33,899 nt of DNA, from assembly GCA_905612245.1 (NCBI GenBank), contig CAJQRL010000030.1:1-33899 (forward strand), given 5' to 3'. The position numbers and the translations under genes are program-made. The notes below the pieces were generated by a model that saw only the letters and a program-made list of their open reading frames with translations, ran no database searches and was not told the DNA's origin. The DNA comes from an uncultured Nitrosomonadaceae bacterium. GTDB lineage: Bacteria; Pseudomonadota; Gammaproteobacteria; Burkholderiales; Nitrosomonadaceae. This document shows positions 12,784-19,403 of the stretch, piece by piece. Within the stretch, counting starts at the first letter, position 1; each line of letters begins with the position of its first letter.

Positions 12784-13857
12784 TCAGTTAACATATGTTG
12801 AAAATGGTTTTCCCATGCGCCAGAATTTATAAAGATTATTCTTTGTTATGGAAAAATTTATAGCTACGCCTTTATTTATGGTAGTTATGGTTACCTGATT
12901 AATGGCATTCTTTTTTAGCATGTTAAGTACAGGTTCGAACCATTCTTTTTCTAACTCCTTAAGGCTCTCACGCCAACCATAGGCATCTCCATATTCAAAT
13001 TTTCCAGACAAGGAATCCAAAAAAACAAGGTGTCTGCCAGATTTATTCTGTTGCTGCCATGAATCAAAATTTACTGGAAGTTCCGTATGATTAGCACCGC
13101 AAGCCCTCGCTAAAGAACGAGGGAAAACATCATTACTCCATACATGCGCATAAATTGAATTTGCGAGTTTAGGTATAACCCCACCTCCCCAAAACCAGAT
13201 TCCATTTATTGCCAAATCTCCACGTTCTTCACGAGCCTGGTTGAGAGGATGCTCATACAATAACATTTGAATTTCGTTGAGTATTCCTTTCCAGAACATC
13301 TCTTCAGTGCCATATGGAAAATGATCATTAATATTTTTTGCGGCAGTTTCACTTAGCAAATGAGTCTGAATAAGAGGAGTCTTCTGCATATATAAATACC
13401 AACGATCAGCACATAATGGCACTAATGATATTAACTTCCGCCTGTTATCCACTCCACACGACGGAGAAAGATCATCCTCAGCAAAATGCTTGTTTATGAC
13501 CTCAGCAAATTGACAAGCCTCTTCTAATGAAATGGAGAAAGTACGACTATCAGCCAATAACACTTGCTCATGCTCAACCCGTAAGTGTACTGGATCGGCT
13601 CTTAACCAATAACCATCACCTGTTTCTGTGTCTCCTGCTTTATCTGCTAATAATGTAAGGGGTGCTACCGGTATATCCTGCTGCTTTTCTACACTAAAGG
13701 CTTTACATAGCCAATCTTCTACTCCTTTCGATTCATCCTTAGTTCGTAAACTCTTTGCAAAAAGAGTCTCGATAGCAGGTAATGATAAGTCCTGGTAGAT
13801 CTCATGAAACGTAGAGTCTGGCCAAAACAAATTTGGAATAAAAAGATGTAAATTCAT
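12784..13857 (-). CDS. RpfE-type / phosphoglycerate-mutase-like protein of unknown function
   Basis: The 357-residue product matches the conserved but uncharacterised family often annotated as regulatory protein RpfE type or as a cofactor-independent phosphoglycerate mutase-like protein. Recognisable family segments are YWLRADPVHL (83-92), the NEIQMLL block (194-200) and GIWFWGGG (219-226), plus RWYL near residue 152. No signal peptide or membrane helix is seen, so it is probably cytoplasmic. I see no Asp-Ser metal-phosphatase motif, so mutase activity is doubtful. In Xanthomonas, rpfE lies beside recJ in the rpf cluster, and the same adjacency is kept here, 153 bp upstream of recJ. No diffusible-signal genes (rpfF, rpfC, rpfG) are present, so a quorum-sensing role should not be assumed. 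Confidence 0.75.
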   Translation of the reverse strand: MNLHLFIPNLFWPDSTFHEIYQDLSLPAIETLFAKSLRTKDESKGVEDWLCKAFSVEKQQDIPVAPLTLLADKAGDTETGDGYWLRADPVHLRVEHEQVLLADSRTFSISLEEACQFAEVINKHFAEDDLSPSCGVDNRRKLISLVPLCADRWYLYMQKTPLIQTHLLSETAAKNINDHFPYGTEEMFWKGILNEIQMLLYEHPLNQAREERGDLAINGIWFWGGGVIPKLANSIYAHVWSNDVFPRSLARACGANHTELPVNFDSWQQQNKSGRHLVFLDSLSGKFEYGDAYGWRESLKELEKEWFEPVLNMLKKNAINQVTITTINKGVAINFSITKNNLYKFWRMGKPFSTYVN

Positions 13858-13895
13858 TTAGAGATACCACTAACAAAATTTTAATTTGAACAGAT

Positions 13896-13928
13896 AAAAA
13901 ATATCTATGAAGTATTTTTAATTCATAG
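13896..13928 (-). terminator. Candidate Rho-independent terminator after pmbA
   Basis: On the minus strand CTATGAA and TTCATAG pair (7 bp, 10-nt loop), followed three bases later by a run of six T. It sits between the pmbA stop and the start of the RpfE-type gene, so it would separate the two transcripts. The stem is weak (two G-C pairs). Confidence 0.4.
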
Positions 13929-13963
13929 CAATTAAATAAATCCAATACTTTTCAGCGTGCTGC

Positions 13964-15307
13964 TTAACCCCCCGCAACGGTCATTTTTTTGACTAGCAAT
14001 GAACCACTCTGTTTAGAACCATGCACCGCTACGTCGCTCCCAATTTCCGAGATATCTCCTAGCATGTCTTTAAGGTTTCCCGCTATAGTAATCTCTTCTA
14101 CCGGATAGCATATTTCACCACCCTCTACCCAATAACCTGCCGCACCACGAGAGTAGTCACCTGTGACGGGGTTAACTCCTTGGCCAAGAAGCTCAGTCAC
14201 TAATAACCCCTTGCCCATTTTTTTTAGTATGTCAGAAAATTCTAAAGGACTGCTGTTATTTATAGTTATGTTATGGTTCCCGCCAGCATTTCCAGAGGTA
14301 CATAACCCAAGTTTACGTGATGAGTAGCTGCCAAGAAAATAACCTTGTACTATTCCATTTTCGATAATTTTACGCTCTTGTGTTGAAACTCCTTCGTTAT
14401 CAAATACACTACTAGCCAGTCCTTTTTTTATATGGGGTAACTCATGTATCTGTATATCTGGAGAAAATACTTTTTTACCAATGCTGTCCAATAAGAAAGA
14501 TGACTTCCGATAAAGGCTAGCACCACTTATAGCACCAATAAAATGACCTATTAATCCAGCCGCGACAGGAGCCTCAAATAAAACAGGGACCTCACAAGTA
14601 GCTAATTTCTTTGCTCCCAAACGTGCCGCACTCCTCATTCCTGCTCTTTTACCAACATACTCAGCCGATTCCAAATCATTCGCATCTCTTGCTACACTAT
14701 ACCAATAGTCACGCTGCATAGCGTCATTCTGACCGGCAATTACTGCACAGCTAATACTATGACGGGAAGTTGGGTATCCACCTATGAATCCAGAACTATT
14801 TGCATAAATAAATTGTGATTCACTTAGCGAAATACAAGCCCCTTCAGAGTTATTAATACGTTTATCAATTCCAAAAGCATTATCCTCACAGGTCTGGGCA
14901 AGCTGTATCGCCTCATCTATCGATAGGTTCCACGGATGATATAAATCAAGGTCAGGAAATTTCTGTGCTAATAGATTAGTATCTGCCAGTCCAGCACAAT
15001 CGTCTTCAGCTGTATGCTTAGCTATTGAAAGTGCAGCAGCTACAGCATCATTTACAGCCTGTTTAGAAAAATCAGAGGTACTAGCATGCCCTCGCTTTTG
15101 ACCTATGTAGACTGTCACTGATAACCCTTTGTCACGGTTATATTCAATGGTCTCCACCTCACTTTTTCGTACTGTAACATTCTGGCCAAAACCTTCTGAA
15201 ACATCAGTTTCACAGCTACTTGCTCCACCTTTTTTTGCACAACACAAAATATCATCTGCTATCTGCTTGAGAGTATCGGCCTGATAAGAAAAAATTGGAG
15301 AGGACAT
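13964..15307 (-). CDS. pmbA: Metalloprotease subunit PmbA (TldE)
   Basis: TldE/PmbA partner of the TldD peptidase. In E. coli the TldD-TldE heterodimer trims unfolded peptides, including microcin B17 precursor and the CcdA antitoxin. The 447-residue protein has the family pattern: an N-terminal helical domain with KSEVETIEYNRDKGLSV near residue 53, the central LFEAPVAAGLIGHFIGAISG segment where TldD carries its HExxxH, and the C-terminal block GNLKDMLGDISEIGSDV. As expected for this subunit it lacks the HExxxH zinc motif. Length equals E. coli PmbA (450). An AGG lies about 11 nt before the ATG. It is divergent from darP, an arrangement also known in E. coli. The active partner tldD is about 5 kb away in this window. 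Confidence 0.95.
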   Translation of the reverse strand: MSSPIFSYQADTLKQIADDILCCAKKGGASSCETDVSEGFGQNVTVRKSEVETIEYNRDKGLSVTVYIGQKRGHASTSDFSKQAVNDAVAAALSIAKHTAEDDCAGLADTNLLAQKFPDLDLYHPWNLSIDEAIQLAQTCEDNAFGIDKRINNSEGACISLSESQFIYANSSGFIGGYPTSRHSISCAVIAGQNDAMQRDYWYSVARDANDLESAEYVGKRAGMRSAARLGAKKLATCEVPVLFEAPVAAGLIGHFIGAISGASLYRKSSFLLDSIGKKVFSPDIQIHELPHIKKGLASSVFDNEGVSTQERKIIENGIVQGYFLGSYSSRKLGLCTSGNAGGNHNITINNSSPLEFSDILKKMGKGLLVTELLGQGVNPVTGDYSRGAAGYWVEGGEICYPVEEITIAGNLKDMLGDISEIGSDVAVHGSKQSGSLLVKKMTVAGG

Positions 15308-16889: not shown

Positions 16890-17306
16890 TCACTTAGATG
16901 GATCTGTGACAAATCCAATACGCATCATCCCAGCTTTAGAAGCAATTGACATAACTTGTGCAACATGTTCATAAGGGACCTGGCCATCAGCACGTATATG
17001 TAACTCTGTAGCTGGATCCTGTTTTATGATCCCAGAGAAACGTGTTGCTAGCTGCACTAGCGCTATCGGCTCTCCGTTCCAGAAAAGACTCTTATCACCT
17101 TTAATTCCAAGCTCGACATGCTCTGGTTTTGTAATATTTGGACTACTGGAAGCTTTAGGCAAATCAACCTTAACTGAATGTGTAAGTAATGGTGCAGTAA
17201 TTATGAAAATTACCAATAAAACCAACATTACATCTACCAATGGCACGACATTAATCTCAGCCATTGGCGCCTGACTCCCATTTCTATCCATGCTACCAAA
17301 TGACAT
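16890..17306 (-). CDS. exbD: Biopolymer transport protein ExbD/TolR
   Basis: Stator subunit of the proton-driven TonB energising complex. The 138-residue product has one N-terminal membrane helix (about 20-42) beginning AEINVVPLVDVMLVLLVIF, with the proton-carrying aspartate at residue 25, the same position as in E. coli ExbD. The periplasmic domain ends in the usual pattern IRADGQVPYEHVAQVM...GFVTDP. Its ATG overlaps the exbB stop by one base (TAATG), so translation is coupled. TolR is the alternative, but the tonB gene upstream and the lack of tolA, tolB or pal favour ExbD. Confidence 0.93.
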   Translation of the reverse strand: MSFGSMDRNGSQAPMAEINVVPLVDVMLVLLVIFIITAPLLTHSVKVDLPKASSSPNITKPEHVELGIKGDKSLFWNGEPIALVQLATRFSGIIKQDPATELHIRADGQVPYEHVAQVMSIASKAGMMRIGFVTDPSK

Positions 17307-18046
17307 TACTTGTCCCCTTCCGCTTTAGATACAACGCGTAACGGACGTACCTCACCTGCTGAGCTATTGGTTTTAGCTCCAACTGAGATTAATGCGAAAA
17401 GATCATGCGCAAATGAATCTAATCGTGCCAACCATATACGGTTACGGCGTATAAATGCGTTATATGCCAAGACTGCCGGGATCGCTACGGCTAACCCCAA
17501 CGCCGTCATAATAAGTGCCTCTCCTACTGGCCCAGCCACTTTATCTAACGTACCCTGACCAGAGAGGCCAATCTGCACCAGCGCATGATAGATACCCCAC
17601 ACTGTGCCAAATAAGCCTATATATGGTGCTGCAGAACCAGCTGAGGCAATAATTGTCAGTCCGTTCTCTACTCGAGTAGTTTCTTGGTCAATACCGTTTC
17701 GCAATACACGAGTTATAAATTCACTTGCACCACCTGCTGCCTCAAGCTTTTGCAGACCATGTTTTTCTGAATCTTCTGCAGCATGCAGTGCTAACTGAGC
17801 GAGTTTCGCAAAAGCGTTATTAGATGAGTCACTGCTTAAAGTGGTGCTAACCTCCTCTAGTGAATCAGCATTCCAAAATTGTTTCAGAAAAATCTCTGTG
17901 CGTCTTCCTTCTAAAAAATTAGCAACACTCTTGGTAAGAATAAGATACCAACTCGCCACAGAAAGTGAAAGCAACAATACAAGTACGCTGATTCCAACAC
18001 CATCAATTTGGTTAAGAAAATTAGAATAACCTAGTCCATGTTCCAT
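17306..18046 (-). CDS. exbB: Biopolymer transport protein ExbB/TolQ
   Basis: Channel-forming subunit of the TonB-ExbB-ExbD motor. With this start the product has 246 residues and three membrane helices (about 15-36, 130-155, 172-196), with the family segments ASAGSAAPYIGLFGTVWGI and GPVGEALIMTALGLAVAIP. The reading frame is open up to an ATG at 18091, but that would add 15 residues and overlap the end of tonB. The ATG at 18046 has AAGGG about 10 nt upstream, and it falls 4 nt after the tonB stop at 18051, so it was chosen. The exbD start overlaps its stop. The three genes form one operon. Confidence 0.93.
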   Translation of the reverse strand: MEHGLGYSNFLNQIDGVGISVLVLLLSLSVASWYLILTKSVANFLEGRRTEIFLKQFWNADSLEEVSTTLSSDSSNNAFAKLAQLALHAAEDSEKHGLQKLEAAGGASEFITRVLRNGIDQETTRVENGLTIIASAGSAAPYIGLFGTVWGIYHALVQIGLSGQGTLDKVAGPVGEALIMTALGLAVAIPAVLAYNAFIRRNRIWLARLDSFAHDLFALISVGAKTNSSAGEVRPLRVVSKAEGDK

Positions 18047-18050
18047 GATA

Positions 18051-18788
18051 TTATTGCCCTTGTAATACAAAGTTAAAAGGTTGTAATGCAACAGCCCTTA
18101 CAGGCTGTCCGTTACGCATAGCTGGGTTGCAACGCCAAGTTCTAACTACAGCCAATGCTGCATCATCAAGGCGTTTGTAACTACTACTTTCAATTACACT
18201 TGCGCTACTCACGTGACCATTTTTATTCAATTCCACCCGTAATACTAGTTTTCCTTCCTCACCAAGCCTCCTTGAAAGAGACGGATAAGATGGCGGAGAT
18301 AACACCGGACATGTAACTGACAGCTCAGTTAACAGAGCGACAGGAGCAGTTGGCGCCGATACTCGTGCGGGCTCGGATACCGATGTTTCTACCATTTCAA
18401 CAGGAGGAGGTTGTGGTTTAATAACCTCTTCTTCAGATAAAACAGGATCCTCCGGTATAAGCTGCTGCGGTTGCGGCTTCTCTACTAATTCAATCTTCGG
18501 CTTCGGCTTCGGCTTCGGTTTAGGCTTAGGCTTAGGCTTAGGTAGCGGCTTAGGCTCAAGCTTGGGCTTAGGCTTGGGTTTAATTTTAGGCTTTGAAGGA
18601 AGTAGTGGCGAGTCGACTTTATTTACCTCTTCTACTTTCGGCATTGTTATAAAATTAACGAGAATCTTAGAAAGTTTTACAGGAGGAGGAATAAGCCGTT
18701 GATTCCATAGCACATAAAATAGTGCTCCGTGAAATGCCAATACAAACAGCATGCCTGGTATAAAAGCGGGATTGTACTTAACTACCAT
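18051..18788 (-). CDS. tonB: TonB energy transducer
   Basis: Transmits proton-motive force from ExbB-ExbD to outer-membrane TonB-dependent receptors. The 245-residue product has an N-terminal membrane anchor (about 8-27, including a histidine as in other TonB helices), a periplasm-spanning Pro-Lys stretch (66-98, alternating Lys-Pro) followed by Pro/Glu-rich linker, and a C-terminal domain with PSYPSLSRRLGEEGKLVLRV and SSYKRLDDAALAVVRTWR. Cys160 and Cys220 in the C-terminal domain could form a disulfide. The ribosome site is weak, and a 34-codon ORF stops only 2 nt before this ATG, suggesting coupling. No receptor gene is nearby, and I could not find a convincing Fur box. Confidence 0.94.
   Translation of the reverse strand: MVVKYNPAFIPGMLFVLAFHGALFYVLWNQRLIPPPVKLSKILVNFITMPKVEEVNKVDSPLLPSKPKIKPKPKPKLEPKPLPKPKPKPKPKPKPKPKIELVEKPQPQQLIPEDPVLSEEEVIKPQPPPVEMVETSVSEPARVSAPTAPVALLTELSVTCPVLSPPSYPSLSRRLGEEGKLVLRVELNKNGHVSSASVIESSSYKRLDDAALAVVRTWRCNPAMRNGQPVRAVALQPFNFVLQGQ
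18495..18582. repeat. Hexanucleotide repeat encoding the TonB Lys-Pro spacer
   Basis: Imperfect tandem array of GGCTTM hexamers (plus strand), coding Lys-Pro pairs on the minus strand. Runs of identical GGCTTC and GGCTTA units stand next to each other, which suggests expansion by slippage. Unit loss or gain would change spacer length in steps of two residues without breaking frame. Confidence 0.8.
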
Positions 18789-18790
18789 TC

Positions 18791-18895
18791 TTAATACCGC
18801 TTTAATTCTAACTCGTTATTGCGATCCAAAGAGCTTTCAACTGAACTGGAAGCAGTTGAAAAAGTTAGCAATAATAAAAGGAATAGATGCCTCAT
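18791..18895 (-). CDS. 34-codon ORF with signal peptide, directly upstream of tonB
   Basis: Reads MRHLFLLLLLTFSTA and then SSSVESSLDRNNELELKRY before a TAA. The first 15 residues look like a compact Sec signal peptide (Arg-His, seven-residue Leu/Phe core, Ser-Thr-Ala before the likely cleavage), leaving a charged 19-residue tail. Its stop is 2 nt from the tonB ATG, the spacing of translationally coupled genes, and tonB has no good ribosome site of its own. The ORF itself has only GGGA about 11 nt upstream. It could be a leader peptide, a tiny secreted or membrane peptide, or the truncated front of a lost periplasmic gene. I recognise no family. Confidence 0.42.
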   Translation of the reverse strand: MRHLFLLLLLTFSTASSSVESSLDRNNELELKRY

Positions 18896-19037: not shown

Positions 19038-19118
19038 CATACTGCATACTGCATACTTAATCTAATCAATGCTGATTATTAAATTCACGCTTATTTATTA
19101 TTAAATTAGCGGTTATTT
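19038..19118. repeat. Short tandem repeats (7 bp x3 and 22 bp x2)
   Basis: CATACTG, CATACTG, CATACTT run head to tail at 19038-19058. At 19075-19096 and 19097-19118 two 22-bp units beginning ATTATTAAATT are adjacent and match at 19 of 22 bases by my count. Both look like slippage products. TAATCA-ATGC-TGATTA lies between them (19063-19078). Confidence 0.6.
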
Positions 19119-19220
19119 CTAACGATTGCGAATCTAACTAAGAATCAGTCGCATCCAACTTTAGAAGTTTACCACTTTATTTGAATTTACACATAAAGAA
19201 TAAAAAATAGATAAACTGAC

Positions 19221-19242
19221 TATATTTGGTTAGCCAAATATA
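19221..19242. repeat. Hairpin TATATTTGG-TTAG-CCAAATATA
   Basis: Perfect 9-bp arms around a 4-nt loop, about 160 bp upstream of the DUF3106 gene. No following T-run. It could be an operator or part of a structured transcript. Confidence 0.45.
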
Positions 19243-19403
19243 TCAATAATATGCCACGCTACTAATAATCTTAGAACCTACTGCTTATTGGCAATTGCGA
19301 ATCTTTTCAGTATTCAGTATAGTGATAAAATCCATACTATTTATATAGTACTGTCAGCTAATGACCTTCCGATTAATTCCTATTTAGATAATGAGTTCGA
19401 TCC

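Follow-up and report, generated by a model that had tools for sequence, protein, structure and literature searches.

A 34-codon open reading frame before tonB in an uncultured Nitrosomonadaceae bacterium is very probably the remnant of a secreted thioredoxin-like gene

The short open reading frame (ORF) located immediately upstream of tonB in an uncultured Nitrosomonadaceae bacterium is very probably what is left of trx, a gene that encodes a secreted thioredoxin-like protein and stands directly before tonB in this genus and in related genera. This origin is indicated at the sequence level by the presence of intact relatives at the same place, a single in-frame gap of 390 nt, a direct repeat at the join, and the loss of the core carrying the CxxC motif. 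The ORF lies in the window analyzed here, the whole stretch of 33,899 nucleotides, which is contig 30 of a metagenome-assembled genome (MAG; 1.0 Mb, 69 contigs, 72% complete).

The ORF, 34 codons long, is read from the minus strand (18895..18791) and encodes MRHLFLLLLLTFSTASSSVESSLDRNNELELKRY, followed by a TAA codon that ends 2 nt before the tonB ATG at 18788. The earlier note had described this length and spacing but named no strand. The plus-strand frame read from 18791 contains many stops; two ORFs on that strand, 55 and 44 codons long, also span this region. When sequences were simulated with the dinucleotide make-up of the upstream 500 nt, an ORF of at least 30 codons ending no more than 10 nt from tonB appeared in 2.9% of cases, and chance is ruled out as an explanation of the window ORF by its homology to intact genes in relatives. 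The features are listed in Table 1.

Table 1. Features of the tonB region in the window and additional ORFs at the corresponding place in other genomes of the genus.
Feature	Position	Strand	Basis or remark
Probable remnant ORF, 34 codons, of a secreted thioredoxin-like (CxxC) gene	18791..18895	-	DNA alignment with intact 164-codon genes
Codons 1-20: kept start and signal peptide, equivalent to intact residues 1-20	18836..18895	-	Codon-by-codon comparison
Codons 21-34 and stop: kept C-terminal tail of the intact protein	18791..18835	-	Codon comparison
Deletion junction inside GTTGAAA	18835..18841	-	Alignment with G007 and G005
tonB, starting 2 nt past the remnant stop	18051..18788	-	PF03544 TonB_C, E 5e-23
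exbB-like	17306..18046	-	ORF after tonB
exbD-like	16890..17306	-	ORF after exbB
Two extra ORFs before tonB in G002, G003 and G006	L077:2891-3714, L078:3239-4068, L079:3332-4152		L077 and L078 in reverse-complement coordinates

The genus was sampled by eight genomes, including that of the window, and the place upstream of tonB was compared with the seven others. A 164-codon ORF precedes tonB in four of them, with a spacing of 2 nt in G007, G005, and G001 and of 4 nt in G004; in G001 it begins with TTG. Its product consists of a signal peptide and a thioredoxin-like domain with CQYCPTE; the protein contains WNLDCQYCPTEL, or WSLDCQYCPTEL in G004. All four intact homologues score above the cut-off of the Pfam family AhpC-TSA (PF00578), at 26.8-33.6 bits versus 26, while none of the NCBIfam models reaches its cut-off for these proteins. 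They thus match the AhpC-TSA / TlpA-ResA-DsbE-like thioredoxin-fold proteins and carry the CxxC-containing domain, whereas the 34-residue remnant has no such domain, no cysteine, and no match to any family in Pfam or NCBIfam. The predicted structure of an intact relative, obtained from a two-row alignment, was too poor for a fold search (mean pLDDT 49.6), so the thioredoxin fold is assigned from the Pfam match and the motif. A profile comparison with solved structures yielded three weak matches, the best being YkuV (E 0.00098).

The trx gene before tonB is absent from G002, G003, and G006, which are 95, 87, and 79% complete, respectively, and these genomes contain no match to the trx profile. 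In neither G002 nor G006 does an ORF of at least 15 codons end between 20 nt before and 40 nt after the tonB start. In G003 (L078, G003:C95) a 42-codon ORF occupies the stretch between 133 and 4 nt before tonB; it has no blastp match at E ≤10 to 30 intact proteins and the remnant, and an ORF of this type, with at least 30 codons, would be expected by chance at a rate of about 3% when modeled on the upstream region of the window. The comparison of the region before tonB proposed in the earlier note thus shows the full gene in four of the seven genomes, no ORF of at least 15 codons ending near the tonB start in two, and an unrelated one in G003. The trx-tonB region occurs twice in G007 (G007:C4 and G007:C6), the second copy being close to a contig end and perhaps an assembly duplicate.

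Alignment of the window with G007, G005, and G001 reveals one 390-column gap, in frame and corresponding to 130 codons, outside which 90, 92, and 70 of 105 positions, respectively, are identical. Of the window ORF, the first 20 codons correspond to the beginning of the intact gene and codons 21-34 to its end. The intact homologue before tonB in CALSMH010000004.1 (L042:3504-3998, within the trx-tonB example at L042:3504-4726) agrees with the window ORF in strand and position, in start and signal peptide, and in C-terminal tail and spacing to tonB, but 130 codons, CQYCPTE among them, are missing from the window copy. The suggestion that a lost periplasmic gene left this ORF behind is thus borne out: it equals the intact gene of a relative minus 390 nt. 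The missing part includes the CxxC motif, found in all 30 intact loci that were read and presumed from the family to form the active site.

Intact genes carry a direct repeat at both ends of the deleted segment, with the two copies 390 nt apart: GTTGA (5 bp) in G007 and GTTGAA (6 bp) in G005. Among possible deletions of at least 100 nt within the trx gene, only 0.6% would have junction microhomology of at least 5 bp and 0.2% of at least 6 bp. The rarity of such a repeat favors a slipped-strand deletion, and the segment would have been lost when the two GTTGA(A) copies recombined or underwent slipped-strand pairing. The product of the remnant, if made, would be a signal peptide with a tail of about 16-19 residues and no redox function. 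Two substitutions in the tail count against function of the remnant: codon 22 encodes S where intact proteins carry a conserved W, and the last residue is Y in place of the H found in all four intact genes of the genus.

No intact trx copy was found in the 72% complete genome of the window, which has no profile match at E ≤0.001; the remnant is the sole match at E ≤0.1. Since the genome is incomplete, an intact copy elsewhere is possible. It is very unlikely that the organism has the whole gene at this place and that the contig skips 390 nt through an assembly error or a minority variant. Such an artifact might be expected of a MAG in 69 contigs that is 72% complete, but the remnant has its own substitutions on both sides of the join, and repeats as short as 5-7 bp do not collapse an assembly.

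The pairing of trx with tonB extends beyond the genus. Among the 125 genomes of the family, 71 have trx profile matches and 123 have a tonB match. The position relative to tonB was checked for 43 of the 75 listed trx matches, and 34 of these lie on the contig and strand of tonB and precede its match by 5-199 nt (4 in genus g1, 8 in g4, and 22 in g3). The remaining nine, all from g2, are not so placed. In g3 and g4, two genomes, G108 and G120, are without a trx match, and neither gave a tonB match. The sequence was read in 30 of the 34 paired loci (L047-L076), all of which have CxxCP.E and the tail W. In 29 of them the first start belonging to an ORF of at least 150 codons is located between -53 and +16 nt from the trx stop; in the 30th, that of G005, tonB starts at +2 and is split. 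This tonB (L006 / G005:C117:13737-14449) consists of two overlapping frames, with matches at 13737-14138 and 14132-14449, and is therefore frameshifted or misassembled.

Because trx adjoins tonB in 34 of the 43 checked matches across g1, g3, and g4, the full-length gene before tonB is likely the ancestral state. In a tree of 11 rows, the window is placed beside G007 and G005, both with the intact gene (support 84/89), within a fully supported group that also contains G001. The positions of the three genomes without the trx gene (G002, G003, and G006) are not resolved. From this tree we infer that the gene was lost at least twice within one genus.

The order tonB, exbB-like, exbD-like is found in all eight genomes of the genus; the last two names are our assignments from sequence and gene order. 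A scan of the named collection for near relatives of TonB returned five loci, the three nearest of which, at 93% identity, come from two uncultured Nitrosomonadaceae MAGs, CALSMH01 (twice) and JAAZZR01. The other two, with 43 and 40% identity, presumably belong to other Betaproteobacteria. Upstream of the remnant, a block around AGTGGTAAA (window 19102-19246, minus strand) recurs upstream of tonB in G002, G003, and G006, and may be a shared promoter region. These three genomes have two ORFs, absent from the window, between the gene for a secreted protein (128 aa in the window) and tonB (Table 1); one of them we take to be ECF sigma factor-like.

The rate of evolution of the remaining codons is of limited help. 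Comparison of the remnant with G007 gives dN 0.116 and dS 0.361 (ratio 0.32), and with G005 a dN/dS of 0.39, both over 34 codons, versus 0.07 for tonB compared with G007. For seven intact pairs, the corresponding end positions have ratios of 0.16-0.33, with dS saturated in some pairs, indicating that the ends of trx evolve faster anyway and that the test has little power on the remnant. As its values are not clearly above those of intact pairs, the rates do not establish relaxed selection or decay. The frame that is still open also counts against reading the ORF as a remnant.

This open frame, with its signal peptide and a dN/dS below 1, could be expected of a secreted micropeptide that functions together with the TonB complex, as the earlier note had considered. 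Such a role is highly improbable, since homology to a larger protein accounts for both halves of the ORF, the conserved tail W is lost, and a homologous short ORF before tonB occurs in none of the seven other genomes of the genus. The same absence leaves the idea of a leader peptide controlling tonB without support, and both were rejected as main readings. The window ORF resembles leader peptides and upstream coupling ORFs in being short and having a stop that adjoins the downstream start; it differs from them in its origin as a gene scar and in having no homologous short ORF in relatives. The coupling-like geometry is real and makes coupling plausible, but it did not arise as a leader, having been inherited from the full-length trx-tonB pair.

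The remnant could nevertheless have been kept because it serves tonB as a leader or translational coupler: the enzyme would have been lost through the in-frame deletion while ribosomes were still delivered to tonB. This is possible but unlikely. The length of the deletion is a multiple of 3, and the start, the stop codon and the 2-nt spacing to tonB are all kept, although a deletion is in frame by chance in one case of three. The calculated anti-SD duplex is stronger at the start of the small ORF (-4.2 kcal/mol) than at that of tonB (-3.2 kcal/mol). The weakness of the tonB ribosome site, also pointed out in the earlier note, is real, but it is not special in the window, where such weak sites are frequent and 12 of the 22 other scored starts are weaker. 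A close or overlapping stop-start geometry is seen in the intact homologues as well, and G003, lacking trx, has its unrelated 42-codon ORF ending 4 nt before tonB; G002 and G006, however, have tonB with no such ORF close to its start, so not every member of the genus requires coupling. Coupling of the remnant to tonB in the window is possible, as judged from this arrangement. A stronger version, decidedly unlikely, would have the deletion produce a minimal coupler, a leader made of the two ends of the gene, in which selection preserved the start that loads ribosomes and the stop-start junction, since tonB depends on them.

For the remnant of a deleted trx gene, the kept start and stop-start spacing could still allow ribosomes translating it to re-initiate at tonB, so that tonB-exbB-exbD need not be silenced by the deletion.

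Overall, the window ORF is an ordinary gene scar, and its interest lies in its clean in-frame form and in the trx-tonB pair that it belongs to. A search of the literature library used here found nothing on tonB with thioredoxin or on coupling before tonB. This case shows that a convincing signal peptide and close spacing to a known gene do not prevent a small ORF from being a deletion scar, which comparison with near relatives exposes at once. The pair itself consists of tonB and a thioredoxin-like protein to which no precise family name could be given here, placed together in three genera of one family.
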